Part shown: in pieces, positions 1 through 34,399 of the stretch
Numbering within the stretch: position 1 is the stretch's first letter
Layout of the letters: every line of letters starts with the position of its first letter
Assembly: GCA_018821305.1 (NCBI GenBank)
Contig: JAHJMN010000096.1
Location: forward strand, 1 to 34,399
DNA from: Myxococcota bacterium
Lineage (GTDB): Bacteria; Myxococcota_A; Polyangia; HGW-17
Length of the DNA stretch: 34,399 bases
Reading direction: 5' to 3'
Notes under the pieces: model-generated
What the model was told of the DNA's origin: nothing
The model's input: only the letters and a program-made list of their open reading frames with translations
Database searches by the model: none
Position numbers and translations under genes: made by a program

Positions 1-130
1 CCTGACTTGCTGATTATCTGTTAAAAAAATCAGGAACACAGGAAATCAGTAGCAGAAACAGGACATTCAGGGTCTTTCTCCTGAAGATTTTCTTTAGAAT
101 AACTCACAATCGTATTACTCAGGAAGCGGT
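1..130 (+). repeat. TIR element family 1, copy A (right part, cut by window start)
   Basis: This is the right-hand part of the dispersed element described in full at 12516. It holds the TTAAAAAAATCAGG centre, the CAGG-rich arm, the block CACAATCGTATTACTC and the terminal AGGAAGCGGT, which ends at 130 and is followed by CTAG. The left half lies outside the window. It sits beyond the 3' end of the minus-strand lipoprotein gene. Confidence 0.75.
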
Positions 131-331
131 CTAGTTGGGGCAATGATATGAACCGGAGTATTTTTCCCTGGTCCCAATAAGACGGTGAATGAACGGATCA
201 TGAGCCTGTGTCCGCACAGGCGAAAGTTTATCAGCCCGGCTCGTGAGAGCCGGGACGGTGGCGGGGTAATTGCATAGACGTGAATGATCGCCCCCGTGAA
301 TCCCCACAAGATGGTGAATCTGCAGATCCTG
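131..331 (+). other. Gene-free stretch with strong tetraloop hairpins; candidate structured RNA
   Basis: I support no gene here. Read on the plus strand there are two adjacent perfect hairpins: GCCTGTG/CACAGGC at 204-221 with a TCCG loop, and CCCGGCTC/GAGCCGGG at 235-254 with a GTGA loop. As RNA these would be a UNCG-type and a GNRA-type tetraloop. GGGGC (137-141) can pair with GCCCC (290-294), or CGGGG (262-266) with CCCCG (292-296), which could close a multibranched fold. Neither hairpin has a T-run on either strand, so they are not ordinary intrinsic terminators. The short minus-strand ORF across this stretch runs into the flanking repeat and is unconvincing. I cannot name an RNA family. 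Confidence 0.35.
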
Positions 332-2878: not shown

Positions 2879-3007
2879 CACGGTCCTGACGAAATGTACT
2901 TAAGAGTACAGAGTTTTTTTATTCAGGACCGTGACCACAAGATGGCTTATTTATACTAGTGGCCCATAAGGATTTTTAATAAAATCCTTCGCGAAGCGAA
3001 CTATGGG
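2879..3007 (-). repeat. Compound hairpin repeat forming the leader of the EIIA gene
   Basis: The outer hairpin is CACGGTCCTGA (2879-2889) with TCAGGACCGTG (2923-2933). It encloses TGTACT/AGTACA (2895-2910). Next comes a three-part structure: CCCATA (2963-2968) pairs with TATGGG (3002-3007) and encloses AAGGATTTT/AAAATCCTT (2968-2989) and TTCGC/GCGAA (2988-3000). Bases 2969-3000 are an exact 32-base reverse-complement match to 34277-34308, and 2957-2964 matches 34313-34320. The TCCTGA-bounded hairpin also recurs there as CTGTCCTGA/TCAGGACAG. The stretch is therefore a dispersed repeat, although its position would make it a 5' untranslated leader. Confidence 0.7.
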
Positions 3008-3061: not shown

Positions 3062-3742
3062 ATGCTGTCAATACGAGAACTTGCCGCTTCATTTCAGTTG
3101 CCAGTTGATACAATTAATAAGTGGATTAAAGAGGGTAGAATTAACGCGCATCGCATGGGTGACAACATCTATGTGGATCAGAATGAACTCCGCAGGGTTC
3201 TTGAACAATCTTCAAAAATACCATCGGAAGGTGTTCATAACGTCATCAAAAATCAGGAGTTCAGCCTCGTCTCATCTTTGAAATCCGGTGGAGTTTTCCA
3301 CGGTGTTTCCGGAAGTACGAGGGATGAAGTGCTCATGAATTCCCTTGAGAATATCAGGGGAATAAGGGAAGAATCAAGACATCAGCTCCACGGGCTTTTA
3401 ATAGAGCGGGAAGAACTTTCATCCACGGGAGTGGGTGATGGTATTGCTTTTCCTCATGCCCGGGGCTCCCTGGATAATATAATTACCGAACCGATTCTTT
3501 CCCTTAACTTTCTGGAAAATCCTGTGGAATTCGGAGCAGTTGACGGACAAGCTGTTCATATTCTGTTTCTGCTTTTTTCTCCTGATACAAAAACCCACCT
3601 GAAAATGCTTTCAGCTCTATCGTTTGCTCTTTCCAGAGCAGAAATCAGAAGTGCTGTCATGAACCATGAAGGCGAAAGTGTAATCTTAAGCGCCTTTTCA
3701 ACTCTTGAGCAGGAGCTTAAAACTAAGAGAAAGGGAGCCTGA
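3062..3742 (+). CDS. Helix-turn-helix protein fused to a PTS EIIA (fructose/Ntr-type) domain
   Basis: A 226-residue protein. Residues 1-50 form an excisionase/MerR-type winged helix (IRELAASFQLPVDTINKWIK, then a wing IYVDQNELRRVL). Residues ~75-225 form a type-2 PTS EIIA domain. GDGIAFPHARG places the phosphorylatable histidine at His132, and VHILFLLFSPD plus HLKMLSALS are typical EIIA strands and helices. In PtsN-type proteins this histidine receives phosphate from NPr/HPr and the domain signals nutrient state rather than moving sugar. The fusion suggests a DNA-binding regulator whose state depends on phosphorylation. No PTS permease gene is nearby. It starts after a strong GGGAGG and ends four bases before ehrA, so it should be co-transcribed with the Ehr complex. 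TGCCT/AGGCA around the ribosome-binding site could form a small hairpin. Confidence 0.88.
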   Translation: MLSIRELAASFQLPVDTINKWIKEGRINAHRMGDNIYVDQNELRRVLEQSSKIPSEGVHNVIKNQEFSLVSSLKSGGVFHGVSGSTRDEVLMNSLENIRGIREESRHQLHGLLIEREELSSTGVGDGIAFPHARGSLDNIITEPILSLNFLENPVEFGAVDGQAVHILFLLFSPDTKTHLKMLSALSFALSRAEIRSAVMNHEGESVILSAFSTLEQELKTKRKGA

Positions 3743-3746
3743 CCCT

Positions 3747-5702
3747 ATGGAACTTTTGCTGACAGGTATCCTTATAGTAATTGCCGGCGGTTTTGTATCT
3801 GCTTTTGCAAAAACCAATCGTTTTGCAGGTCTTACCGCTGTGATGTCTCTGATTCTGGGCCTCGGTATTGCGGCACTTCCCGTTATAACCATGCTGCTTA
3901 AAGGCGGCAGTTATAAACTTTCACTGCCTTGGAGCATGCCCGGCGGAGCTTTGTCCTTCGGCCTCGATCCCCTCAGTGCCCTTTTTGCCCTGCCTGTGAT
4001 AATTATAAGTCCCCTCGCCGCATTTTACGGGACTGCCTACCTCGAGAAAGAGCATCATCACTCCCGCACATCCTGGCTTTTTTATAATATCCTCGTGGCT
4101 TCAATGATGCTTTTACTCGTGTCACGAAATGCCCTTTTATTTCTTGTTATCTGGGAAGTTATGGCAGTCAGTTCATTTTTCCTGGTTGTAATGGAGCATC
4201 GAAGCGGTGAAGTAATGAAAGCGGGATGGATTTATCTGCTCGCAACCCATGCAGGAACCGTTGCCGTCATTTTCCTGTTTCTCATTATGGGTAAAACAGC
4301 AGGAAGTTGGGAATTCGAGCGTTTTGCCGCCGCCAGTGCAGGGTCTACATCTGTGTTTTTCCTTGCGGTAATCGGCTTTGGGGCAAAAGCGGGATTTTTT
4401 CCCATGCATGTATGGCTTCCCGAAGCGCATCCCGCGGCACCGAGTCACGTATCCGCCCTCATGTCCGGTGTAATGATAAAAATGGGAATCTACGGTCTTG
4501 TACGCATTCTGACCTTCTGCGGAAAACCAGCGGTGTTCTGGGGCTGGAGTCTGATAGTTATCGGACTTACCGGGGGAATCCTGGGTATTTTGCTTGCTTT
4601 AGCGCAGAAAGATATCAAACGGGTGCTTGCTTACTCCAGTGTTGAAAACATCGGAATTATAACCATGGGAATAGGCGCGGGCATTTTAGGAACGGCATGG
4701 AACAATACAGCTCTGATTATGCTCGGATACGGTGGAGCGCTTTTACATGTGATTAACCATTCGGTTTTTAAAAGTCTGCTTTTCATGGGAGCGGGCAGCG
4801 TTCTTTATTCCACGGACACGAAGGAAATGGATCGCCTTGGGGGCCTCGGGAAGAAAATGAAGTGGACTGCCGTGGCGTTTTTGGCAGGGAGTCTTGCTAT
4901 CAGTGGGCTGCCGCCATTTAACGGTTTTGTAGGTGAATATCTCTTGTTTTCCGGTGGTCTGGCTTCCCTGAATGCTGGAACTTATCAGAGTGCTTCCCTT
5001 GCGGTGGTTATGTTTATTGGCCTTGCACTTATCGGTGGTCTTGCCGTTGTGTGTTTTACAAGAACTTTCAGCATAGTTTTCCTCGGGGAAGGGCGAACGG
5101 ATGATGCAAAGATCAAACGCAGATTAACTGCAGCTATGGTCTGGCCACTTCTTTTCCTTGCGACACTGACACTGGTAATCAGTTTTGCATCTCCGTGGAT
5201 TATAAAATCCGTGTTTCTGGCAGTGCGGGGACTCTCGCCGGTACCAATTGAAATGAATTATAAGCCATCATCCAGTTCACTTATGATGCTCGTTATTTCC
5301 GGGGCGGTATTAATGGGGTTAGCTGGTCTTTTATACTTTATCCGTCGGCGTCTTCCCATGGGAGATGTGGAAACTTCCGCTGGAACCTGGGACTGCGGTT
5401 ACGCAAAACCTGATGCTTCCATGCAATACACTTCCTCTTCTTTTGTGGATCCCGTCATCCGACTTTTCGGTGCTCTGGCGGATCGCAAGGGGAAAAATCC
5501 CCAGGTTCGAGGGTACTTTCCTGCCTCCACCAGTCTTGAAACGGATGCGGGGGATATCGGCGAAGAGAAACTTTACAGACCGGCCTTTGTGTGGCTTGAA
5601 AAGTTTGCGGCGCCTCTCCGCCGTTTTCAGCACGGGCACATCCACGGCTATCTCATTTATATTGCTCTCACTTTAATAATCCTGCTCATCTGGAAAGTCT
5701 GA
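3747..5702 (+). CDS. ehrA: Ehr complex membrane subunit, HyfB/NuoL-like antiporter-type
   Basis: A 651-residue multi-spanning inner-membrane protein of the NuoL/MrpA/HyfB family, the proton or sodium translocating subunits of complex I and group 4 hydrogenases. Diagnostic features are LFLVIWEVMAVSSFF (conserved Glu in helix 5), GFGAKAGFFPMHVWLPEAHP with the channel Lys, HVINHSVFKSLLF with a second Lys/His pair, and VLAYSSVENIGI. The C-terminal WDCGYAKPDASMQYTSSSF matches HyfB/HycC-type subunits. I start it at the ATG at 3747, nine bases after AAGGGAG, rather than at the in-frame TTG at 3705 that lies inside the EIIA gene. It should be the ion-pumping first subunit of the complex. The ehr letter is assigned by gene order and by likeness to Hyf subunits. 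Confidence 0.88.
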   Translation: MELLLTGILIVIAGGFVSAFAKTNRFAGLTAVMSLILGLGIAALPVITMLLKGGSYKLSLPWSMPGGALSFGLDPLSALFALPVIIISPLAAFYGTAYLEKEHHHSRTSWLFYNILVASMMLLLVSRNALLFLVIWEVMAVSSFFLVVMEHRSGEVMKAGWIYLLATHAGTVAVIFLFLIMGKTAGSWEFERFAAASAGSTSVFFLAVIGFGAKAGFFPMHVWLPEAHPAAPSHVSALMSGVMIKMGIYGLVRILTFCGKPAVFWGWSLIVIGLTGGILGILLALAQKDIKRVLAYSSVENIGIITMGIGAGILGTAWNNTALIMLGYGGALLHVINHSVFKSLLFMGAGSVLYSTDTKEMDRLGGLGKKMKWTAVAFLAGSLAISGLPPFNGFVGEYLLFSGGLASLNAGTYQSASLAVVMFIGLALIGGLAVVCFTRTFSIVFLGEGRTDDAKIKRRLTAAMVWPLLFLATLTLVISFASPWIIKSVFLAVRGLSPVPIEMNYKPSSSSLMMLVISGAVLMGLAGLLYFIRRRLPMGDVETSAGTWDCGYAKPDASMQYTSSSFVDPVIRLFGALADRKGKNPQVRGYFPASTSLETDAGDIGEEKLYRPAFVWLEKFAAPLRRFQHGHIHGYLIYIALTLIILLIWKV

Positions 5703-5711
5703 GGTAATTAC

Positions 5712-6626
5712 ATGAAACTGCTTCACTGGCTTTTACCGATTTCAGCTTTTATCATTGCGCCGATCATTCCCGGCATTATTAACCGGGTGAAGGCTTTCTT
5801 TGCCGGGCGTCGTGGTGTTCCGATTCTGCAACTTTACATCGATATCTGGAAGCTTCTGCGTAAGGGAAGTACCTACAGTCACACCACAAGTTTTGTTTTC
5901 CGGATTGCTCCTTCTGTTATCGCTGCAGCTCTGATTCTCTGCACATTTTTTATTCCCTGGGGAAGTATCTCATCGCCGGTGTCTTTTTCCGGAGACCTGA
6001 TTTTCATTGCCTATCTTCTGGACGTCGCAAGGTATTTTACAGTCATTGCCGCCATGGATACCGGTAGCGCATTTGAAGGAATGGGGGCCAGCCGCGAGGT
6101 TCAGTTCGGTTTTTTAGCGGAACCGGCTTTTCTTATGGGGATTTTAGTCCTCGTGATGGTGACGAAAAATACTTCGACGTCAGGCATCATGCAGCATCTT
6201 TCGACGAGCGTGTGGGCGGATTCCGGCATCCTGCTTATCTTAGTGGCTACGGCCTGGTATTTTCTGCTTTTAACGGAAAACAGCCGCATTCCAGTGGATG
6301 ATCCCAACACACACCTTGAACTAACAATGATTCACGAAGTAATGGTGCTGGACTACTCCGGCCCGGATTTCGCTTACATTCTTTACGGCAGTGCCTTGAA
6401 ACTGTGGATTTTTTCGGCCCTTATCGTGAACATTTTGCTTCCCGTAGCGGCTTTACCCATCTGGCTTCAGCCAATTGTTTTCATTGCCGGTACAGCGGGG
6501 GTGGCGATACTTGTAGGCATTACGGAATCCATCATCGCGAGACTGCGGCTGGTGACGGTGCCGAAAATAATCGTTTCCGCCAGTGCCCTTTGTTTCATCG
6601 CACTCATTTTCAGGATAATCGGGTAG
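5712..6626 (+). CDS. ehrB: Ehr complex membrane subunit, HyfC/NuoH-like
   Basis: A 304-residue membrane protein of the NuoH/HycD/HyfC family, which anchors the peripheral arm and forms the quinone or ion entry path in related complexes. Visible landmarks are GVPILQLYIDIWKLL near the N-terminus, AFEGMGASREVQFGFLAEPA (the conserved E-G-x-G-A-S-R-E loop) and ENSRIPVDDPNTHLELTM followed by HEVMVLDYSGPD. Eight or so hydrophobic helices are apparent, as expected. GAGGT lies before the ATG and the gene starts nine bases after the ehrA stop. The length is normal for HyfC and all conserved acidic and arginine residues of the loops seem present, so the membrane arm looks functional even though the large subunit has lost its metal ligands. 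Confidence 0.9.
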   Translation: MKLLHWLLPISAFIIAPIIPGIINRVKAFFAGRRGVPILQLYIDIWKLLRKGSTYSHTTSFVFRIAPSVIAAALILCTFFIPWGSISSPVSFSGDLIFIAYLLDVARYFTVIAAMDTGSAFEGMGASREVQFGFLAEPAFLMGILVLVMVTKNTSTSGIMQHLSTSVWADSGILLILVATAWYFLLLTENSRIPVDDPNTHLELTMIHEVMVLDYSGPDFAYILYGSALKLWIFSALIVNILLPVAALPIWLQPIVFIAGTAGVAILVGITESIIARLRLVTVPKIIVSASALCFIALIFRIIG

Positions 6627-6630
6627 GACC

Positions 6631-7341
6631 ATGAATATAATTTCAATAATTCTCATCATGTCCGGTCTTCTGTTACTTGGTTCCAGTCGTCTGGGAGTTG
6701 CCATTAAAGTTGTGGCAATCCAGGGACTTGTTTTAGGTATTTTACCCATTGTAAAAGCATCTCATGAGCTTACGGCGGGGGTATGGTTTTTGTGCATAAG
6801 TATCATTGCCGCAAAGGGAATCATACTGCCGATTCTGCTGAACACTAATCTTAAAAGCTCCGGAATCACAAGGGAAATCGAACCCTTTATAAGTTACGGA
6901 GTTTCAATCATTGCGGGCATAATTATGCTGATTTTAGCCGGTTGGATGACCGTCAGGCTGAATCTCAACCGCACTATGACACCGCCCATCGTTCTGAGTG
7001 CTGCTTTTTTCATGGTTTTAAGCGGTCTTTTCCTTATGATTACGCGAAAAAAGGCCCTTACTCAAATTCTTGGATTTCTTGCCATGGAAAATGGTGTTTA
7101 TGCTGTTGGTATCGGCCTCAGTCTAGAGTTTCCATTCATGGTCGAACTCGGAATCCTCCTTGACGTTGTAGTTGGTGTCGTCATTATGGGGCATTTACTT
7201 TTGCATATGGACAAGGAAATGGCTCATACAGACACGGATCGTCTTACGGAACTATCGGACAACATACGTCTTTCCGGGGAAATTAAAGTCGTGTCATCGA
7301 ATGAAGTTAATATCGGAAGTGATCGGGAGGTACTGAAATGA
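6631..7341 (+). CDS. ehrC: Ehr complex membrane subunit, HyfE-like
   Basis: A 236-residue membrane protein that resembles HyfE, whose N-terminal half is NuoK-like and whose second half is specific to Hyf/Ehr complexes. There are about six or seven hydrophobic helices. AMENGVYAVGIGLSLEFPFMVELGILLDVVVGV carries the conserved Glu/Asp residues of the family (given here as positions ~150-182). The last 35 residues are polar and probably cytoplasmic. The gene starts four bases after ehrB and its TGA overlaps the ATG of ehrD in an ATGA junction, so translation is probably coupled. Presence of a HyfE-type subunit favours a Hyf/Ehr-type complex over an Ech or Mbh type. Confidence 0.85.
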   Translation: MNIISIILIMSGLLLLGSSRLGVAIKVVAIQGLVLGILPIVKASHELTAGVWFLCISIIAAKGIILPILLNTNLKSSGITREIEPFISYGVSIIAGIIMLILAGWMTVRLNLNRTMTPPIVLSAAFFMVLSGLFLMITRKKALTQILGFLAMENGVYAVGIGLSLEFPFMVELGILLDVVVGVVIMGHLLLHMDKEMAHTDTDRLTELSDNIRLSGEIKVVSSNEVNIGSDREVLK

Positions 7342-8795
7342 TTAGAATTCTCTTCCCGACGGTTATTGCTGCTATGGCCGGAATTATTGCTTTTTTTATC
7401 CGGAGTAATACATGGCGTCGTGCACTTCTGGTTACAACTGCATCGGTACATCTTGTTTTTTCCTTTTATCTTGGTGCGATCAAGCCAATCAAAGCCGGGT
7501 GGATTGGCACAGACAGCCTGTCGGTAATTTTTCTTGTTACCGTTTCCCTTATGTTCTTTGCTGCGGCGGTGTACAGCATATTTTATCTAACTGCAGATCG
7601 TCACCATGAGCCGGAAAACGCCAGCCGCTACCTGAGTTCTACACCTGAATCAATCTACACCGGCTGTATGCTTTTGCTTTTAAGCACCATGACGCTGGCT
7701 GTTACCGCAAGGCATTTTGCTCTTCAATGGGTTTCAATCGAAGCGACGACTTTAGCCAGTGCGCCCCTCATTTATTTTCATCGCTCGAGCCGAAGCCTTG
7801 AGGCAGCCTGGAAGTACCTGATAATTTGCTCCGTTGGCATCGCAATAGCCCTCATGGGATTGTTTTTCCTGAGGATGACGAGTCCGAAAGTTTCAGAATT
7901 CACTGTGGATGCCTTCGTTGCCGCTGGAAGCTCCCTGGATAAGAAATGGCTCAGTGCAGCCTTCATCATTATACTTGTTGGTTACGGTACAAAAATGGGT
8001 CTTGCACCGCTGCATACCTGGCTTCCCGATGCCCACAGTGAAGCTCCGGCGCCTGTGAGTGCGCTTTTATCCGGCGCTCTCCTTAACTGTGCATTTTTAG
8101 GAATAATGCGTGTTCACCAGGTTGCAAACGCGGGTGGCATTGGCGTTATGGCGAGTGAACTACTCGTGATGTTCGGTATTTTTTCCATTGGCCTTGCCAC
8201 GGTTTTCATATTGAGGCAGCCGGATTTCAAACGTCTTTTGGCCTATTCCAGCGTTGAAAATATGGGAATTATCGCCCTCGGTGTAGGAGTTGGTGGTGGT
8301 GCAGTTTTTGGGGGTCTTTTCCATGCGGTAAACCACAGCCTTGTGAAAGTAGCGCTGTTTTTAGCCGCAGGAAACATCCTCGCACGGTACGGAACCCGGG
8401 AATCCTCAAAAGTACGCGGACTTGCATCCATAATGCCTACCACAGCTTTTATCTGGACCATGGGGCTTATTGCCATAACCGGGACGCCACCTTTCGGTAC
8501 TTTCATGAGTAAATTCACAATTCTCAAGACCATGACGGCAAAAGGCATGTGGTCTTTAACTGCGTTTTTTATGGCATTTCTAGTTATCATCTTTGCAGCT
8601 ATGTCATACATCGTCCTGAAAATGGTTTTCACACCCCCACCACCAGAGATGCCTGAAAAACCCGAGAGGACACTGAGCTGGATCATGCCGGTTATTTTAC
8701 TCGTCACGGCATTGGCTGCAGGTATCTATATGCCTGAAATTGTAAGAAATCACCTTGAGCAGGCATCTGCTCTTTTCGGAGGTGGACTGAAATGA
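7338..8795 (+). CDS. ehrD: Ehr complex membrane subunit, HyfF/NuoM-N-like antiporter-type
   Basis: A 485-residue multi-spanning protein of the NuoM/NuoN/HyfF group, the second antiporter-like subunit of the complex. Landmarks are LQWVSIEATTLASAPL (Glu in helix 5), GYGTKMGLAPLHTWLPDAHS (channel Lys) with APVSALLSGALL, RLLAYSSVENMGIIALG, and FHAVNHSLVKVALFLAAG with the second Lys and His. Its end overlaps ehrL in an ATGA junction. Two antiporter-type subunits (this and ehrA) imply two ion channels, as in Hyf, so a substantial ion-pumping capacity is inferred. No residue expected for the channel looks replaced. Which ion is moved cannot be read from the sequence. Confidence 0.88.
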   Translation: MIRILFPTVIAAMAGIIAFFIRSNTWRRALLVTTASVHLVFSFYLGAIKPIKAGWIGTDSLSVIFLVTVSLMFFAAAVYSIFYLTADRHHEPENASRYLSSTPESIYTGCMLLLLSTMTLAVTARHFALQWVSIEATTLASAPLIYFHRSSRSLEAAWKYLIICSVGIAIALMGLFFLRMTSPKVSEFTVDAFVAAGSSLDKKWLSAAFIIILVGYGTKMGLAPLHTWLPDAHSEAPAPVSALLSGALLNCAFLGIMRVHQVANAGGIGVMASELLVMFGIFSIGLATVFILRQPDFKRLLAYSSVENMGIIALGVGVGGGAVFGGLFHAVNHSLVKVALFLAAGNILARYGTRESSKVRGLASIMPTTAFIWTMGLIAITGTPPFGTFMSKFTILKTMTAKGMWSLTAFFMAFLVIIFAAMSYIVLKMVFTPPPPEMPEKPERTLSWIMPVILLVTALAAGIYMPEIVRNHLEQASALFGGGLK

Positions 8796-10282
8796 TACCA
8801 CGTACTTTACGAAATGGAGTCAGTGTTGCCTTCTGTGAGATTCCGGTTTTCAGCGCCGATGAATTCCGGTACATCCTTTCTGAATATATCAGCGGCATGT
8901 GCCATGTATCCTCTTTCTTCGCCATGCCCGATGGCGACAATTACACAATTATTGCAGTCCTTTCCAACCCGGATATGAGCACTATTGAAGTCTTCCGTAC
9001 GATGGTGGGAACGGAGTATCAATCCCTCACTCCTGCGGTTCCCGAACTTCACTGGTTTGAGCGTGAAATATACGAGCAGTGGGGAATTGTACCTGCAGGA
9101 CACCCGTGGCTGAAACCCATCCGTTTTCATGAAAACTACGCAAATCCATCAGGACAGGAAGTTATTCCAGGAGTTACAGATTATTACCGTATTGAGGGCG
9201 CTCAGGTGCATCAGGTAGCTGTGGGTCCGGTTCATGCGGGAATTATTGAGCCCGGTCATTTCCGCTTCCAGTGCCATGGGGAGACCGTTTTTCATCTTGA
9301 AATAGAGCTCGGATATCAGCATCGGGGCATTGAACGGGCAATTTTAAGAAACAAAGCCCGGATCCCGTTTCTGATGCAGACAGCAGCAGGGGATACAACC
9401 ATCGGTCACACAAGTGCATGGGCCATGGTCATGGAGGGGTTGACTCATACTAAAACTGCTCACCGGGCCGATTCAATTCGTGCCATAGCTCTTGAACTGG
9501 AGCGACTGGCAAATCATGTGGGGGACCTTGGTGCTCTCGGTACTGACATCGGTTATCTTCCCACGTCATCATATAATGGACGTATCCGCGGTGATTACCT
9601 TAATATGACGGCAATGCTTTGTGGAAACCGCTTTGGACGCAATCTAGTTCGCCCCGGCGGTGTTCTGTATGATATGGATACCGACCTGATTGAGAAACTG
9701 AGGGCGAAACTGGCGGAAATTTATGATGACACCATTTCCTCCGTAGAGCTTTTGTGGCAGACACCGAGCGTTATGGCCCGATTCGAAAACACTGGAACCG
9801 TTTCCGCCCAGGCGGCACGAGAGACCGGACTTGTGGGCGTTGCCGCAAGGGCCTCGGGAATTTGTCGCGATGTGCGCACCGATCTGCCCTTTGGAGCATA
9901 CGTTGGGCATCAGATGAATCCGGTAACTTTTACTTCGGGGGATGTGAGGGCCCGGGCAGGAGTGCGCTGGTTTGAGGTAAAAAACTCAGTGAAATTCATT
10001 CAGGAAGAACTGGAAGCCATGGCTCCTTCCGGTGAAATCATGTCAAATCCCGGAAATGTGGCAGGCGACAGCATCTGCATTGCCCTCACGGAAGGCTGGC
10101 GGGGAGAAATATGTCATACGGCGATTACCGATTCTGCTGGAGCTCTGAGGCATTATAAAATTGTTGATCCGTCTTTTCACAACTGGTTCGGATTGGCTCT
10201 TGCGCTGCGGGATCAGGAAATTTCAGATTTTCCGCTTTGTAATAAGAGTTTCAACCTGTCCTACTGCGGACATGATCTGTAG
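8792..10282 (+). CDS. ehrL: Ehr complex large subunit, NuoC-NuoD/HyfG-like without Ni-binding cysteines
   Basis: A 496-residue fusion. Residues ~15-125 are the NuoC-like 30 kDa domain (PELHWFEREIYEQWGI, then GHPWLKP). Residues ~130-496 are the large-subunit domain shared by NiFe hydrogenases and NuoD (HLEIELGYQHRGIE, ALELERLANHVGDLG, GGNR-type and RPGGV loops). In true hydrogenases the first cysteine pair precedes a conserved His. Here the matching stretch is AAGDTTIGH, residues 198-206, with Ala199 and Thr202 in place of Cys. The C-terminal CxxC is replaced by SYCGHD (489-494), leaving only Cys492 at a shifted place. Loss of these ligands is the known hallmark of Ehr complexes, as opposed to hydrogenases 3 and 4. 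The substrate is therefore probably not H2. No hydrogenase maturation gene is in the window, which fits. Confidence 0.9.
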   Translation: MIPRTLRNGVSVAFCEIPVFSADEFRYILSEYISGMCHVSSFFAMPDGDNYTIIAVLSNPDMSTIEVFRTMVGTEYQSLTPAVPELHWFEREIYEQWGIVPAGHPWLKPIRFHENYANPSGQEVIPGVTDYYRIEGAQVHQVAVGPVHAGIIEPGHFRFQCHGETVFHLEIELGYQHRGIERAILRNKARIPFLMQTAAGDTTIGHTSAWAMVMEGLTHTKTAHRADSIRAIALELERLANHVGDLGALGTDIGYLPTSSYNGRIRGDYLNMTAMLCGNRFGRNLVRPGGVLYDMDTDLIEKLRAKLAEIYDDTISSVELLWQTPSVMARFENTGTVSAQAARETGLVGVAARASGICRDVRTDLPFGAYVGHQMNPVTFTSGDVRARAGVRWFEVKNSVKFIQEELEAMAPSGEIMSNPGNVAGDSICIALTEGWRGEICHTAITDSAGALRHYKIVDPSFHNWFGLALALRDQEISDFPLCNKSFNLSYCGHDL

Positions 10283-10298
10283 GGATGGGGAGGTAAAG

Positions 10299-10388
10299 AT
10301 GACCTTTGAAATAAGTCAGTTCAGTTTGTGTCCCATAATATTCAAGGGAAGCACAAAAGCTCCGGGACAGGAGAGATGTTATGCTTAA
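10299..10388 (+). CDS. Possible 29-codon ORF between ehrL and ehrS
   Basis: The 98-base gap between ehrL and ehrS is long for an operon whose other genes overlap or almost touch. It contains an ATG at 10299 preceded by GGGGAGG (10287-10293), the best ribosome-binding site of the cluster. The ORF runs 29 codons (MTFEISQFSLCPII, one Cys, Lys/Gly/Gln-rich end) and its TAA overlaps the start of ehrS by eight bases. It has no transmembrane segment and I recognise no family. It may be a real small subunit, a leader peptide that couples translation of ehrS, or chance. Confidence 0.4.
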   Translation: MTFEISQFSLCPIIFKGSTKAPGQERCYA

Positions 10389-11139
10389 AACCTTAAGAGC
10401 CCGAATGAAACAGGGTTATCGCACGAGTAATTATCCCGCCACTGACCCGGTTTTGCCGGATCGCTTTGTGGGACTCCCAGTCATTAGTCAGTCCCTTTGT
10501 AAAGCAAACTGCAGCAAATGTATTGAAGTTTGCCCTCAGGGAGCTTTGAGCCGTGTTGATGAAGACAAAATAGCTCTTGATATGGGACTGTGCCTCTTTT
10601 GTGGGGAGTGCATGACCGTTTGTAGTGAAAAAGCGATTACTTTCAGTCGTGATTACCGTCTTGCTGCTCGAAAGCGTGAGGATCTGTATATTTCCGGGGA
10701 AACCTTCCGCCTTGCCGAGCAACTGGATAAAAAAGCAATAAGCCTTTTCGGGCATTCTCTGAAACTGCGCCAGGTGAGTGCTGCTGGCTGTAATGCCTGT
10801 GAAGCTGACACTAACGTTTTAGGTACCCTGACTTTTGATTTATCCCGATTTGGAATCCAGTTCGTTGCTTCTCCACGCCATGCGGACGGAATTCTTGTGA
10901 CGGGGCCCGTAAGTCAGAACATGGCGCTGGCCCTTAAAAAGACCTATGATGCTGTGCCACCTCCAAAACTGGTGATCTGTGTTGGAAGTTGTGCTATAAG
11001 TGGTGGCCCCTTTGCTCAGAATCCTGAAGTAAATAATGGAGCAGGCGCAATTGTCCCTGTGGACCTCTATATTCCCGGCTGTCCTCCACACCCGTGGACT
11101 ATCCTCGACGGCCTCCTCCGCCTCCTTGGCCGCATTTGA
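10381..11139 (+). CDS. ehrS: Ehr complex small subunit, ferredoxin plus NuoB-like (HyfH-HyfI fusion)
   Basis: A 252-residue soluble protein. The N-terminal half is a double [4Fe-4S] ferredoxin domain with cysteines 40, 44, 47, 51 and 71, 74, 77, 81 (CKANCSKCIEVCP and CLFCGECMTVC). The C-terminal half is NuoB/HycG-like: GCNACE (137, 140), CVGSCAISGGPF (204) and IPGCPPHPW (234) supply the four ligands of the proximal [4Fe-4S] cluster. All twelve ligands are intact, so electrons can still flow through this subunit to a site next to the large subunit although the NiFe ligands are gone. HyfH and HyfI are separate proteins in E. coli; here they are joined. ACAGGAG precedes the ATG. No obvious terminator hairpin follows the stop. 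Confidence 0.9.
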   Translation: MLKTLRARMKQGYRTSNYPATDPVLPDRFVGLPVISQSLCKANCSKCIEVCPQGALSRVDEDKIALDMGLCLFCGECMTVCSEKAITFSRDYRLAARKREDLYISGETFRLAEQLDKKAISLFGHSLKLRQVSAAGCNACEADTNVLGTLTFDLSRFGIQFVASPRHADGILVTGPVSQNMALALKKTYDAVPPPKLVICVGSCAISGGPFAQNPEVNNGAGAIVPVDLYIPGCPPHPWTILDGLLRLLGRI

Positions 11140-11267: not shown

Positions 11268-12515
11268 ATGGCGGGTTTAACAGGTTTTAGAGTCAGGAAT
11301 TTCATTTTATTCAGTGCTTTCACGCTTACAAGTCTTGGATTTGTTTCTACTTCTCAAGGGGCAGTTTTTAACTGGACAATTTCTTCATGGTCCGAATGTA
11401 CTGCTGTTTGTGGTGGTGGAACCCAGACAAGAACTGTGGTCTGTGTGGACGGATCCGGAAATATCGTCTCTGACACTCTATGTGGTAATCCCAAACCAGT
11501 GGAATCTCAGGTCTGCAATACGGACCCCTGTAATTACAGTTGGGGTGTTTCGCCTTGGTCAGAATGCAGCACTTCCTGCGGCGAGGGAACACAAACCAGG
11601 GATATTTACTGTATCTGGGTTGATACCATGACCCTTGTTGACGATTCCATGTGCCTTGTTGCCACCAGACCAGCAGAAACTCAAGTCTGCACTGGTACAA
11701 ACTGCGCGTATGCATGGGTTTCGGAAAGCTGGTCAGCCTGCAGCCAGGTCTGTGGTGAGGGAACCCAGAATCGCAATGTGATGTGTGTTGAATCAGCTTC
11801 GGGTAATTCAGTTGATGAATCCAATTGCACAGATCCGAAACCAGTAACGGAGCAGATATGTACCGGAACCGAATGTACATACAGTTGGGCAGTTTCTGAA
11901 TGGAGCGATTGTTCTGAAGAATGCGGCGGTGGCGTAGCTTATCGCGATATATACTGTATCCAGTATGAAACAAATACACTTGTGCATAGCGATCTTTGTG
12001 ATCCTTTGACTATTCCAGCGGAAGAAATGGACTGCAATACTGACCCATGTCCGGGAACTTATACCTGGGCCGTTGGAGAATGGGGTGAATGTGAAGCATT
12101 GTGTCTGCCGGATGCTCCGGATGCTCAGACAAGGGAAGTTTACTGCATCGAAACAGAGTCCAATACTCTAGTGGAAAATGATTTATGTGATCTTCCAAGC
12201 AGACCCGAAGGCAGTCAGGATTGTGAAAGCGAAGATCCCTGCCCGGAATATGATTGGGAAGCTTCCGGCTGGTCAGTTTGTACCGAAGGGATTCAAACTC
12301 GAACTGTAAGTTGTAATGAAACTACTGAAGGAACAGAAGTTACAGATTCCCTGTGTGACTCAAGTACAAAACCCGCCGAAACACAGGAATGCACGCCCGA
12401 AGATGGCGATTCCGATGATGACGGTGGATGTTCCGCAAGTGGTAAATCCCGTGGCAGTATCATTTTCCTCCTTCTTCCCGCCATTATCTTCGCCCTCCGC
12501 CGCAGAAAATTCTAG
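11268..12515 (+). CDS. Secreted protein with six thrombospondin type-1-like modules and a C-terminal sorting tail
   Basis: A 415-residue protein. I use the ATG at 11268, preceded by AAGGAGGAG, not the in-frame TTG at 11244. A signal peptide (about residues 1-33) is followed by six ~55-residue modules, each starting W-x(5)-W-S-x-C or similar, with CGGGTQTR / CGEGTQTR, a Cys in the middle and a terminal C-x(4)-C or D-P-C. That is the WSxC...C.xG.xxR...C pattern of TSP1 domains, known from adhesive extracellular proteins. Module five has an insertion (LPDAPDAQTR) and module six has lost one Cys pair. A Glu/Asp-rich linker ends in DGGCSASGKSRG, a 12-residue hydrophobic helix and ALRRRKF. This Cys-hydrophobic-Arg tail is what MYXO-CTERM or GlyGly-type sorting signals look like. 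A surface adhesion role is inferred. Its TAG directly abuts repeat copy B. Confidence 0.85.
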   Translation: MAGLTGFRVRNFILFSAFTLTSLGFVSTSQGAVFNWTISSWSECTAVCGGGTQTRTVVCVDGSGNIVSDTLCGNPKPVESQVCNTDPCNYSWGVSPWSECSTSCGEGTQTRDIYCIWVDTMTLVDDSMCLVATRPAETQVCTGTNCAYAWVSESWSACSQVCGEGTQNRNVMCVESASGNSVDESNCTDPKPVTEQICTGTECTYSWAVSEWSDCSEECGGGVAYRDIYCIQYETNTLVHSDLCDPLTIPAEEMDCNTDPCPGTYTWAVGEWGECEALCLPDAPDAQTREVYCIETESNTLVENDLCDLPSRPEGSQDCESEDPCPEYDWEASGWSVCTEGIQTRTVSCNETTEGTEVTDSLCDSSTKPAETQECTPEDGDSDDDGGCSASGKSRGSIIFLLLPAIIFALRRRKF

Positions 12516-12827
12516 ACCGCTTCATGAGTAAAAGGATCGAAATTGGGAAATTGAATTAAAAATTGCGTTCTTTTCAATTATTAATTGATATTGAATGGTT
12601 ACGCCCTGATCCTGATCCTGAACCTGTTTACCTGACTGCCTGAGTCCCTGTTAAAGAAAATCAGATAATCAGGAAATCAGTAGCAGGAACAGGGAGGCAA
12701 TTTTTGCTTTGCAAAAATGCAAGGGGACAATCAGGTAGGCAATTTCGCGCAGCGGAATGCTTTAGAGGGGCTCTTTCCTGTAGCATTTCTTTAAACCGAG
12801 TCACAATCGTATTCCTCAGGAAGCGGT
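12516..12827 (+). repeat. TIR element family 1, copy B (complete)
   Basis: This is the most complete copy. The left end is ACCGCTTCATGAGTAA and the right end TTCCTCAGGAAGCGGT; with the other copies the consensus ends are ACCGCTTCCTGAGTAA and its reverse complement. Inside, GGATCGAAA..GGGAAA is followed by an AT-rich block, a CCTGATCCTG-rich arm, TTAAAGAAAATC at the centre, a CAGG-rich arm and CGAGTCACAATCGTATT. The two arms are complementary, so the element can fold on itself. Copy B alone carries inserted mini-hairpins (about 12695-12715 and 12740-12762). It begins one base after the stop codon of the upstream gene. Confidence 0.8.
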
Positions 12828-12832
12828 ATATA

Positions 12833-13075
<243 letters not shown>

Positions 13076-13098
13076 CTACTTCCTTCTGAAAAATGGGC

Positions 13099-19919: not shown

Positions 19920-19978
19920 TCATTCCTCCTCCTTGAAATTTTCTGAAACTGCATCTAAAGTTAGCAGTCAGGTTCTGT

Positions 19979-20026
19979 AGTGAAATACCTGATTTCAAAT
20001 TTTTCATCGATTTTCGCTCAGGACAC
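19979..20026 (-). repeat. TGTCCTGA element (family 2), reverse copy
   Basis: Read on the minus strand it has TGTCCTGAGCGAAAATCG, AAAAATTTGAAATCAGG and TATTTCACTACAG. It aligns well with the copies at 22825 and 34347 through the TCCTGAGC(N)AAAAT block and the AAAAATTTG..TATTTCA block, but its right end has lost the GGAC. It lies 20 bases before the start of the next gene. Confidence 0.6.
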
Positions 20027-23905: not shown

Positions 23906-23947
23906 GTGTGCTCTCGCGCAGCGAATTTTCGGACAGTAACTAACTAT

Positions 23948-24188
23948 ACCACTTTCGACGTAATACGATTGTGACTCGTTTTAAAGAAATGCTACAGGAA
24001 TGAGCCCCCTGTTTTCCTGTTCCTGCTCCTGATTTCCTGTTTCCCTGAAATTTTTTAACAGGTACTCAGGTAGTCAGGCAAACAGGATCAGGATCAGGTC
24101 ATAAACATTCAACATCAAAGCATAATTACAAATGGCAGGATGAAAACAAGTACTTTTCCCGTTTCGATCCTTTTACTAATGAAGCAGT
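23948..24188 (-). repeat. TIR element family 1, copy D
   Basis: Reverse orientation. It begins ACCACTTTCGACGTAATACG with diverged TIR, then TGACTCGTTTTAAAGAAATG, the TCCTG arm, TTTTTTAACAGG, the CAGGATCAGGATCAGG arm, AACATTCAACATCAAAG, CCGTTTCGATCC and the end TTTTACTAATGAAGCAGT. It fills most of the 403-base gap before the RCC1 gene; the rest is AT-rich and must contain that gene's promoter, where I see nothing definite. Confidence 0.72.
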
Positions 24189-24308
24189 CTAATATTGGAA
24201 AAAAAAGTATTAACGGGTACACTTTATAGACTGGATCTTTTCAGGTTTAGTTTACGATAAAATTTAAGCTTTAATTTCCGGTTCAGTGGTTTATTTTAAG
24301 GTTAAAAA

Positions 24309-26156
24309 ATGCGCATAATTATTATATTTTCGTTTCTTTTTATTTCTTCATGCAATTTTTTTCTGGAAGTCAAAGACCCTCCCACCGAAACCATTTGTGG
24401 AAACGGCTCAGTAGAAGGGACTGAAGACTGCGACCTGGATAACCTTGACGGGGCCACCTGTTCATCCCTCGGTTTTGATACGGGAACCTTATCCTGTACA
24501 GGACAGTGCAGTTTTGATACTTCCGGGTGTTCAAACATTTCAGAAGATTGTGACAATGGAATTATTGACGAAGGGGAAACCTGTGATGGCACGGACTTCG
24601 CAGAATCCAGTTGTGAAAGTTTCGGATACGCCGGGGGCTCTCTTACATGTACCGCATGCCAGATCGACCCTTCGTCATGTGACGGATATCCTTGCGGAAA
24701 CGGTATCATTGACGATGGCGAAAGTTGTGACGGAACTAATTTCGGGGCTGTTACTTGCCAGTCTCTCGGTTTTGTATCGGGTGATCTTCAATGCACAACA
24801 GGGTGCACGGTGATAAATACGGATTTATGCATTGCTCCATCGGATTGCGGCAATGGCGTATTAAATGGCGGTGAAGAATGCGACGGCACAGATTTCGGTA
24901 CAGCCACCTGCACATCCCTTGGCTGGTACTCCGGCGGAAATTTAGCCTGTGACGATCAATGCCACTTTGTAACTGATGACTGCAGTGGTGGATATTGTGG
25001 CGATGGCATCATACAGCCTTTCAGCCCTGCTTTTGAAGAATGTGACGGCACTTCGGGTACTCCGAACTGTTTTGATCTTGGGTACTGGTTTTCGGAAAAC
25101 ACGTCATGTAATTCCTCCTGTAAAGCTGATGTTTCAAGTTGTACTGAAGTTCTTGATGTTACCGGAGGCTACAGTCATGCCTGCGCCCTCATTTCCACAG
25201 GTCAGGTTTTCTGCTGGGGAAATAATTCCTTCGGACAACTTGGAAACGGCCTTTATGGGGGCAGTGGCAATGCTCCCGTGGAAGCTCTCATTATATTGCC
25301 GGCAGTTAAAATACGTGCTTACCAGCATAATACCTGCGCTGTTTTATCCGATGGAACGGTTCAGTGCTGGGGGGATCAATTCAGTTCAACTCCATACACT
25401 ATGCCGGGCATGACTGATGCTCAGGATGTTTGTCTGGGAATGGAACACCAGTGTTATTCGGATTCTTCTGGCAATATGTACTGCCGGGGTGATAACGGCG
25501 ATGGCCAACTCGGAATTGGCCTGGCAGGAGGCTATCTTCAGGATCCTCAAGAGGTGTTTGGTCTCGTAAATGTTACAGATATTTCCTGCGGTTCCTATCA
25601 TACCTGCGCAATTTCAAACGGTGATGTTTGGTGCTGGGGCCGTGGCGAAGATGGTCGGCTGGGTTATGGCGGGACCAATGACCGGAGTGAACCTCAGAAT
25701 GTTCTTATGGCCGGAGAAAGTGTCAGTTGCGGCAATCGACATACCTGTGCGGTAAACGGTGCCGGGGATGCCTATTGCTGGGGTAGCAGTGCGAATCGTC
25801 AGGTTGGATATGTTACTTCGAGTAATAGATTGTCTCCCTATATGATGGGAAACGGTTTTGTGAGTGTTTCCGTACGCTGGAACTCATCCTGCGGTATCCG
25901 CACCGATGGCAACATCTGGTGCTGGGGTGGTAATGAATACGGTCAACTCGGAAATAATACATATGATCAGAGTTACATGGAAACTGCAGTTTCATGGACC
26001 ACAACAAACATCACCTCCATGGGCGGCAAGGGCAATTTTGTATGCGCCGTAGATGAAAACAGGGAACTGCGCTGCTGGGGCCAGAATGGTGACGGCCAAC
26101 TCGGTATTGGAAACGGGAACAATTCCCCTGTCCCCATCCGTGTTTTATCCCCATAA
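24309..26156 (+). CDS. Lipoprotein with five Cys-rich modules and a seven-bladed RCC1-type propeller
   Basis: A 615-residue protein. The signal ends in the lipobox LFISSC (Cys15). Residues ~30-280 hold five ~45-residue modules of the form CGNGxxxxGExCDGTxF...TCxSLGF...LxC...C...C, like the myxococcal Cys-rich repeat. Residues ~284-612 hold seven RCC1 blades. Each has HxCAxxxxGxxxCWGxNxxGQLGxG or a close variant (for example SHACALISTGQVFCWGNNSF, SYHTCAISNGDVWCWGRGED, FVCAVDENRELRCWGQNGDG), so the propeller closes at the canonical number of seven. Each blade has a Cys pair about ten residues apart, so internal disulfides are likely and an oxidising location is expected. RCC1-like surface proteins bind proteins or glycans; the partner is unknown. 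Start codon follows TAAGG at eight bases. Confidence 0.9.
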   Translation: MRIIIIFSFLFISSCNFFLEVKDPPTETICGNGSVEGTEDCDLDNLDGATCSSLGFDTGTLSCTGQCSFDTSGCSNISEDCDNGIIDEGETCDGTDFAESSCESFGYAGGSLTCTACQIDPSSCDGYPCGNGIIDDGESCDGTNFGAVTCQSLGFVSGDLQCTTGCTVINTDLCIAPSDCGNGVLNGGEECDGTDFGTATCTSLGWYSGGNLACDDQCHFVTDDCSGGYCGDGIIQPFSPAFEECDGTSGTPNCFDLGYWFSENTSCNSSCKADVSSCTEVLDVTGGYSHACALISTGQVFCWGNNSFGQLGNGLYGGSGNAPVEALIILPAVKIRAYQHNTCAVLSDGTVQCWGDQFSSTPYTMPGMTDAQDVCLGMEHQCYSDSSGNMYCRGDNGDGQLGIGLAGGYLQDPQEVFGLVNVTDISCGSYHTCAISNGDVWCWGRGEDGRLGYGGTNDRSEPQNVLMAGESVSCGNRHTCAVNGAGDAYCWGSSANRQVGYVTSSNRLSPYMMGNGFVSVSVRWNSSCGIRTDGNIWCWGGNEYGQLGNNTYDQSYMETAVSWTTTNITSMGGKGNFVCAVDENRELRCWGQNGDGQLGIGNGNNSPVPIRVLSP

Positions 26157-28853: not shown

Positions 28854-29102
28854 ACCGCTTCAAGAGTAATACGATAGTGACTCGTTTTAAAGAAATGCTT
28901 CAGGAAATTGACCATCGCATTCCGCTGCGCGAAATTGACCCTGATTGTCCTGTTCCTGCTACTGATTTCCTGACATTTTTTAACAGGGACTCAGGTAGTC
29001 AGGCAAACAGGATCAGGATCAGGTCGTAAACATTTAACATCAAAGTAAAATTACAAAAATGGAATATATTCACTTTTTTGATTCCGATCCTTTTACTCAG
29101 GA
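28854..29102 (-). repeat. TIR element family 1, copy E
   Basis: Reverse orientation. It begins ACCGCTTCAAGAGTAATACG and shows TGACTCGTTTTAAAGAAATG, GCATTCCGCTGCGCGAAATTG (28917-28937, also an insert in copy B), the TCCTG arm, TTTTTAACAGGGACTCAGG, GGATCAGGATCAGG and CGTAAACATTTAACATC. At its far end GATCCTTTTACTCAGGA is joined to the palindrome at 29097, so the final AAGCGG is replaced. It separates the convergent AlaX and lamin-tail genes. Confidence 0.72.
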
Positions 29103-29128
29103 CACGAACTAATTAGTTCGTGTCCTGA
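29097..29128. repeat. Perfect 32-bp palindrome
   Basis: TCAGGACACGAACTAA is followed at once by its own reverse complement, with no spacer. Half of it (AATTAGTTCGTGTCCTG) is found again at 34257-34273 next to another repeat. Two more hairpins follow: CAATTTT/AAAATTG (29133-29150) and AGCATGTTT/AAACATGCT (29151-29172). The group sits between convergent genes and could extrude as a cruciform or serve as a bidirectional terminator, though there is no T-run directly after it. Confidence 0.85.
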
Positions 29129-29210
29129 AATTCAATTTTTATCAAAATTGAGCATGTTTACGAAAACATGCTATTCAGAACACTTTAATAATTTCAAAGT
29201 CTTCATTCTT

Positions 29211-29270
29211 AATGTCCTGTGATAGAAATAGTCGTTAACTTGAAAAGTTGGTATAAAGGACATTAACTAA
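29211..29270 (+). repeat. TGTCCTGA element (family 2)
   Basis: AATGTCCTG (29211-29219) and AGGACATT (29257-29264) are inverted ends, followed by AACTAATTA, the same tail as at 22877. Its interior (GATAGAAATAGTCGTTAACTTG) differs from the other copies, so only the termini are conserved. It lies in the 509-base gap between convergent genes, which is otherwise filled by copy E and the palindrome group; 29271-29334 shows nothing I can name. Confidence 0.6.
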
Positions 29271-29334
29271 TTATTATGTGGGATTATTTGAAGGAGACGG
29301 GGTCTTTTTCAAGGCCCTTATGGACACTACCTAT

Positions 29335-32365: not shown

Positions 32366-32430
32366 TCTAACAAATTTTAAAAATAACTGTTAAGATGACA
32401 GGCCCATAGGCATAGAAATCATTATATTAG

Positions 32431-32663
32431 ACCGCTTTCGTAGTAATACGACACTAACTTAATTTAAAGAAATACTTCAGGACAACAAACCTGATTTTCC
32501 TGTTCCTGGTACTGAATACCTGTTTTCCTGATTTTTGTAACAGGGATACAGGAAATCAGGAAATCAGGAACAGGTCATAAATATTTAGTATTAATGTAAA
32601 ATTACAAAGGATTGAAAAAGTTAAACACTTTAAAATTTTAGATCCTTTTATTCAGGAAGCGGG
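32431..32663 (-). repeat. TIR element family 1, copy F
   Basis: Reverse orientation. It begins ACCGCTTTCGTAGTAATACG, passes through AATTTAAAGAAATACTTCAGG, the TCCTG arm, a TTTTTGTAACAGGG centre, the CAGGAAATCAGG arm, CATAAATATTTAGTATTAATG and ends TTTATTCAGGAAGCGGG. It is flanked by TTAG on the left and (T)TTAG on the right, a possible target duplication. Confidence 0.75.
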
Positions 32664-32977
32664 TTTAGAGGTAATGCTTATCGTATAGTGAACTTACGAG
32701 TAAATTTGTCAATAAATACAATATGGTATAATGATTACAGGCAGACAGGAATTCAGGAAAACAGGGACAGGAGCAGGGCGGTTACTTTGAAGGTAAGTGT
32801 TTTTGTGGCACAAAGATCGATTTCAATTCAGTATTTGCGATGCCCCTTCAGGCACAAACCCCTGATTATCCTGATTCTGATACTGTTTCTGACTTCCTGA
32901 ATGTTCTTGCTTTTATTTAAACATGCTGTTTTTGTTAATAATATCTTCTAGTAAGGCTTATCCGAACAGCATTGGGT
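32664..32977. other. Gene-free region with a CAGG/CCTG fold-back remnant
   Basis: A CAGG-rich arm (about 32738-32779) is followed some 80 bases later by a CCTG-rich arm (about 32861-32905), the same base pattern as in family 1 but in the opposite order and without the conserved flanks. It may be a rearranged copy. The short plus-strand ORF here is made of repeat text and I do not accept it as a gene. Confidence 0.4.
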
Positions 32978-34255: not shown

Positions 34256-34256
34256 G

Positions 34257-34399
34257 AATTAGTTCGTGTCCTGTAATTCGCTTCGCGAAGGATTTTATTA
34301 AAAATCCTAACAGGCCACTACCAGTAAATTCAACACCTTGCGGTTACTGTCCTGAGCAAAAAATCGGCGAAAAATTTGATTTCCGGTATTTCAGGACAG
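34257..34399 (+). repeat. Compound repeat homologous to 2879-3007, reaching the window end
   Basis: AATTAGTTCGTGTCCTG (34257-34273) is half of the 29097 palindrome. Bases 34277-34308 match the reverse complement of 2969-3000 exactly (32 bases), GGCCACTA (34313-34320) matches 2957-2964, and CTGTCCTGA (34347-34355) with TCAGGACAG (34391-34399) repeats the family-2 hairpin ends. The same modules occur in the same order in both places over more than 120 bases. The window stops at the last base of the hairpin. Confidence 0.72.

Follow-up and report, generated by a model that had tools for sequence, protein, structure and literature searches.

A probable IS630-type MITE family with a variable CCTG/CAGG core, in hundreds of copies between the genes of a Myxococcota bacterium

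Introduction

Among described bacterial repeats, the closest in kind and in mode of spread to the family presented here is RUP of pneumococcus, for which mobilisation in trans by IS630-Spn1 has been proposed (PMC3049150). Like the present family, RUP is short, non-coding, present in about 100 or more copies and over-represented between convergent genes, and its terminal repeats resemble those of the resident IS630 element (PMC3049150). BOX, also from pneumococcus, has a comparable modular interior, with inner modules in variable copy number between conserved outer parts; its proposed mobiliser differs, being ISSpn2, and its modules are compared here by description (PMC3049150). Chunjie of Geobacter uraniireducens, likewise compared by description, is intergenic and 178-235 bp long, with 38 copies that have conserved TIRs and direct repeats and 57 partial copies (PMC10969869). 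As far as its abstract describes it, BrickBuilt of Porphyromonas gingivalis is a MITE whose interior, between conserved ends, consists of tandem short repeats (a minisatellite), with 19 copies and a 23-nt direct repeat (PMC4596501).

Here we describe a repeat family, referred to as element A, that was first seen in a 34,399-nt stretch of DNA from a Myxococcota bacterium, hereafter the window. RUP is a simple repeat of 107 bp with about 110 copies, whereas element A is about 238 bp long (overall range 88-386 bp), is present in about 230 full-length copies and several hundred fragments and, unlike RUP, has a variable CCTG/CAGG core and optional modules. That the two are not the same was judged from the 237-239 bp length of element A and from ends that match the IS630 element of its own genome, rather than from an alignment with RUP. 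Chunjie copies are far fewer than those of element A, and the BrickBuilt abstract gives no description of opposed complementary arms, which element A has (PMC4596501).

From comparisons of sequence, we put at about 0.95 the probability that element A belongs to the non-autonomous DNA transposons (MITEs) of the IS630 / Tc1-mariner group. A first-pass annotation of the window had recognised no described family. This stands for the sequence itself, which has no match in plasmids, phages or viral contigs and, in the window, no Rfam family match at gathering score, but it does not stand for the kind, which is that of an IS630-type MITE. With the known systems compared by description, element A is a new family within this known kind, and it is notable for its copy numbers and its modular core.

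Results and discussion

The repeat had been reported at seven sites in the window, and it was found at all seven, in both orientations, with exact bounds that differ from those first given (Table 1). Three of the copies are complete and four are partial or altered. The first complete copy has TA at 12513-12514 and at 12829-12830, and the stop codon TAG (12513-12515) of the gene upstream consists of the target TA and the first G of the element. Its right arm holds the internal modules GGCAATTTTTGCTTTGCAAAAATGCAAG and GGCAATTTCGCGCAGCGGAATGC. The partial copy that follows it has no left terminal repeat, a decayed right end and a tandem expansion of CAGGAG in the right arm, and in the copy at 28854-29101 the left tip beyond CAGGA is replaced by the sequence of repeat C1 (GGACACGAAC). 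As the window itself begins and ends in such repeats, contig breaks are probably favoured by them, and these families probably cause much of the fragmentation of the metagenome assembly. Several other contigs, in an assembly of 216, also begin or end in these repeat families.

Table 1. Copies of element A in the window, with the arms of the first complete copy
Feature	Position	Strand	Basis
Element A, complete, 314 bp, both internal palindromic modules	12515-12828	+	Sequence, pair and TA analysis
CCTG-rich and CAGG-rich arms of the first complete copy	12609-12765	.	
Element A, partial, immediately 3' of the 12515-12828 copy	12833-13083	+	Sequence, repeat search
Element A, complete, main class of about 238 bp, TA at 23945-23946 and 24190-24191	23947-24189	-	
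Element A, right end intact	28854-29101	-	
Element A, complete yet diverged, TA at 32428-32429 and 32666-32667	32430-32665	-	
Element A, left end broken off within the terminal repeat, right end cut by repeat C2	34056-34255	+	
Element A, right part, cut by the contig start; CTAG after the right end	1-131	+	

The main class of element A measures 237-239 bp from terminal CCGC to GCGG, with a mean pairwise identity of 82%. Terminal inverted repeats of about 16-19 bp stand at both ends and are followed by end-specific blocks. The left end is GACCGCTTCNTGAGTAAAAGGATCGAAA and the right end, read inwards, is [T/G]ACCGCTTCNTGAGTAATACGATTGTGAC; past the common terminal repeat, the ends diverge into AAAGGATCGAAA on the left and ATACGATTGTGACTCG on the right. 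The inverted ends first noticed are real, but not in the uniform form ACCGCTTCCTGAGTAA, as CATGA, GCGGA, CCTGA and TCGGA are all common after CCGCTT. Similarly, the block GGATCGAAACGGG, which had been taken to mark one side of the repeat, is a feature of a subfamily only, and it is AAAGGATCGAAA that is conserved on the left. Variants of the left and right tips show moderate coupling (14 observed vs 7.6 expected).

Two further length classes accompany the main one. Elements of 270-280 bp contain one extra palindromic module at a single position in the right arm, either GGCAATTTTTGCTTTGCAAAAATGCAAG or GGCAATTTCGCGCAGCGGAATGCTTTAGAGGGG, and the first copy in the window carries both palindromic modules; one internal palindrome of element A occurs outside element A too. 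Elements of 88-105 bp are complete and have the same ends, with the arms absent. The description of arms that vary in length between conserved flanks held up well, with 0-8 CCTG units and 0-9 CAGG units per complete element and with ends kept over hundreds of copies. Coding capacity had been called absent, and this is confirmed, the overlap with ORFs amounting to 1.2% of bases.

Copies were surveyed in a sample of 1.53 Mb (77 stretches) of the window's own genome, and the counts were then scaled up. In this sample, an nhmmer search with a profile built from 40 main-class copies yielded 266 merged hits, copies and fragments together, which make up 3.0% of the DNA. Both ends are present in 74 of these hits, and most of the 266 are missing one or both. 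Given this loss of ends and a mean difference of 18% between main-class copies, much of the family is therefore old. Motif searches across the whole genome showed the ends in great excess over chance, with 281 matches to the terminal pattern CGCTTCNTGAGTAA (at most 1 mismatch) vs 8 for the reversed control, 273 to the right-end motif GAGTCACAATCGTATTAC vs 3 for the control, and 338 to the left-end motif GAGTAAAAGGATCGAAA vs 1 for the control. The right- and left-end motifs occur 88 and 111 times in the 1.53-Mb subset, and the whole genome therefore holds about 3.07 times as much. Extrapolation from the end counts places element A at about 800 loci (~820) in the whole genome, fragments included, with ~230 full-length, and a second estimate from length alone gave ~900. 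The genome-wide count that the first-pass annotation had proposed thus came to hundreds of copies, by end motifs as well as by nhmmer. With about 800 extrapolated loci, fragments included, element A ranks among the more numerous MITE families on record for a bacterium; 711 copies of ERIC in Photorhabdus are cited in a review (PMC10969869).

Outside this genome, element A is scarce. Among 59 related genomes, only that of a sister species was matched in addition to the window's own, and it contains one clear relative, at G001:C7, which keeps part of the core (69% identity over 157 positions), as well as several short elements whose ends are the same, a handful in total. Motif counts in eight other relatives were at chance level, and the expansion is therefore specific to the window's species among the genomes searched.

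The repeat had been described as lying only between genes, and 96% of the 266 hits overlap ORFs of at least 100 aa by less than 5% of their length, the gene calls used for context being long ORFs and not curated genes. Of 224 copies of element A, 105 have convergent neighbours, 105 tandem and 14 divergent, vs 150 convergent, 784 tandem and 156 divergent among all gaps of the genome. Element A avoids divergent (promoter) gaps and clusters at gene 3' ends, with a median distance of 37.5 bp to a gene 3' end vs 130 bp to a gene start; in 19 cases a gene stop falls at or within an element A tip. Convergent gaps are likewise enriched in pneumococcal RUP and IS elements, which has been read as avoidance of harm (PMC3049150).

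The strong excess at 3' ends and in convergent gaps, the short distance to gene ends and the stops at or in the tips would also suit formerly mobile copies that the host has domesticated as an RNA hairpin at gene ends, be it a terminator, an mRNA stabiliser or an RNase III site, and one copy does fold better as DNA than its own shuffles (z = -2.97). However, RNAalifold over 40 copies detected no compensatory change in 14 consensus pairs, many copies are truncated and there is no Rfam match, and we consider domestication unlikely. The giant fold-back core of the first-pass annotation is borne out insofar as the arms are truly complementary, but compensatory base changes between the arms do not accompany this complementarity. 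A selected RNA structure for the core was not adopted because the 40 copies show no covariation, and the fold-back itself is probably not a selected structure.

Insertion left a more specific signature. TA or CTAG had been guessed as targets, and an exact TA duplication was found: at the exact boundary, 45 of 61 complete elements have TA on both sides, and about 0.4% would be expected by chance because the frequency of TA in the flanks is 6.4%. A comparison with empty sites had also been suggested, and clean gapless junctions were present in other repeats of the same genome, where the joined flanks of an interrupted repeat were matched to uninterrupted paralogous copies of that repeat. Gapless empty copies numbered 36 for C163:1466-1704, 44 for C166:30415-30647, 3 for C35:80465-80704 and 2 for C167:44212-44449, and the copy at C61:12289-12562, which is nested in another element A copy, had 107 gapless empty matches. 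These matches show clean insertion with TA duplication, a hallmark of IS630 and Tc1/mariner elements. For an orthologous empty site, one region was tried in the sister species and was non-syntenic, with a transporter ortholog of 79% identity in a different neighbourhood and only a 36% relative of an AlaX-like protein.

The palindromic core and the modular internal palindromes, one of them also found outside element A, would be compatible with a REP/BIME- or BOX-like repeat that spread otherwise, through RAYT or recombination, with its TA flanks incidental. REP/BIME repeats are without target duplication, whereas element A duplicates TA exactly; the TA flanks of 45 of 61 elements and the many gapless empty sites largely refute this mode of spread and, together with terminal repeats of 16-19 bp and IS630 ends in the same genome, make it very improbable.

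The CCTG/CAGG arms are a short-repeat array whose length changes, most likely by slippage or recombination. Clusters of at least five CAGG/CCTG number 162 in the 1.53 Mb, whereas eleven other 4-mers of identical or similar base composition form 0-17, and 120 of the 162 lie within 400 bp of element A ends. An origin as a fold-back or slippage artefact, with CCTG/CAGG simple repeats arising independently at many sites, would explain why the arms are short-unit arrays of variable unit number, but it is hardly credible and is refuted by unique flanks and ends that are conserved over hundreds of copies and that the complete 88-105 bp elements possess without arms. Related CAGG/CCTG arrays are found in a second MITE family (family B) and ahead of an S23/IVP gene at C78, and another lies on the right side of the IS630 element described below; given this last array, the MITE core and the parental transposon therefore probably share a history.

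A transposase with the same ends had been named as a further expectation, and IS630 gene fragments are indeed present in the window's genome. These DDE_3 fragments, at C56 and C10, match NF033545 (IS630 family transposase; 2.5e-19 and 2.7e-7) and PF13358 (2.2e-18 and 4.9e-9). The left and right ends of the IS630 element each agree with the corresponding element A consensus at 28 of 30 bases, and the matches include the blocks that distinguish left from right. In the internally deleted IS630 copies C56:1-146 and C44:66-180, codon ~10 is joined to the last ~10 codons, and in the sister species the same IS630 left end leads to MKILSLDLRMRIVESYESGKTRTYKE and an open transposase start. An intact transposase gene is absent from the assembly (no hit to PF01710), and every IS630 copy in it is a fragment, mostly at contig ends; the intact transposase may have been lost, or may be hidden in unassembled repeats. 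Simple deletion from the sampled IS630 element does not account for the core of element A, and only the ends and the array are alike.

In total, element A is short, non-coding and multicopy, with terminal inverted repeats, TA duplication and the ends of a resident IS630 element, as is typical of IS630-type bacterial MITEs, and the first-pass description of it as MITE-like is supported. Its function is most likely selfish, non-autonomous transposition. In such a cycle, an IS630 transposase (DDE_3) would bind both ends of element A in trans, excise or copy the element and insert it at TA, and selection would then purge copies from promoters and coding sequences, leaving intergenic copies that lie mostly at gene 3' ends. 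With its hundreds of insertions, element A forms a natural series for the study of where insertions are tolerated.

The arrangement of the fragments points, at roughly even odds, to a parent that was a two-gene IS630 element, composed of a left end, a transposase gene, an opposed S23/IVP gene (PF05635) with a CAGG/CCTG leader array, and a right end. Its array would have seeded the fold-back cores of both element A and family B. 23S rRNA intervening sequences encode proteins of the PF05635 family. At G000:C56:25131-26018, a convergent IVP gene (PF05635) ends ~24 bases from the transposase 3' end, and beyond it come its leader, the CCTG array and the right end, which is flanked by TA. In the sister species, a unit of 278 bp (G001:C8:12682-12960) with TA on both sides has the 3' ends of the transposase and IVP genes, together with the array, between its two IS630 ends, and related fragments occur at C5 and C6 of that species. 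The whole two-gene element was on no single contig among the loci examined, and searches of plasmids and viral contigs gave no IVP relatives. Mobility of 23S rRNA intervening sequences is suspected and unexplained (PMC4990558). If such a transposon exists, an S23/IVP gene would be spread by a DDE transposase, which bears on how 23S rRNA intervening sequences move and would provide a route, open to testing, by which genes of this family could move.

Other features of the window

MITE family B is represented in the window at about 32668-32975. It is ~310 bp long, TA-flanked and bounded by the TIR GACCCAATGCTGATCGGTTA, with CAGG/CCTG arms, and it carries the S23/IVP leader motif GTTTACTTTGAAGGTAAGTGTTTTTGTGGCA. 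Family B looks like a deleted relative of an IVP-carrying element.

Two other repeat families, C1 and C2, lie at 29110-29276 and 34256-34399, with the ends AGTTCGTGTCCTG / GTTACTGTCCTG, and number about 45 and 85 copies in the 1.53 Mb. A nested copy of C1/C2 type at C109:26613-26991 has a 6-bp target duplication, TAATTA. Fragments of C2 or of a related repeat were found at 2915-3003 and 19975-20025, with ~40-70 matches in the 1.53 Mb.

Among the genes of the window, a membrane hydrogenase / complex I-like cluster occupies 3705-11139, and for one of its proteins the best public relatives reach at most ~50% identity and come from scattered phyla. The stretches 29335-32160 and 24309-26156 encode large secreted-looking proteins with numerous Asp/Cys-rich repeats (CDDGDDNDGDG...), the latter with RCC1-like repeats as well.
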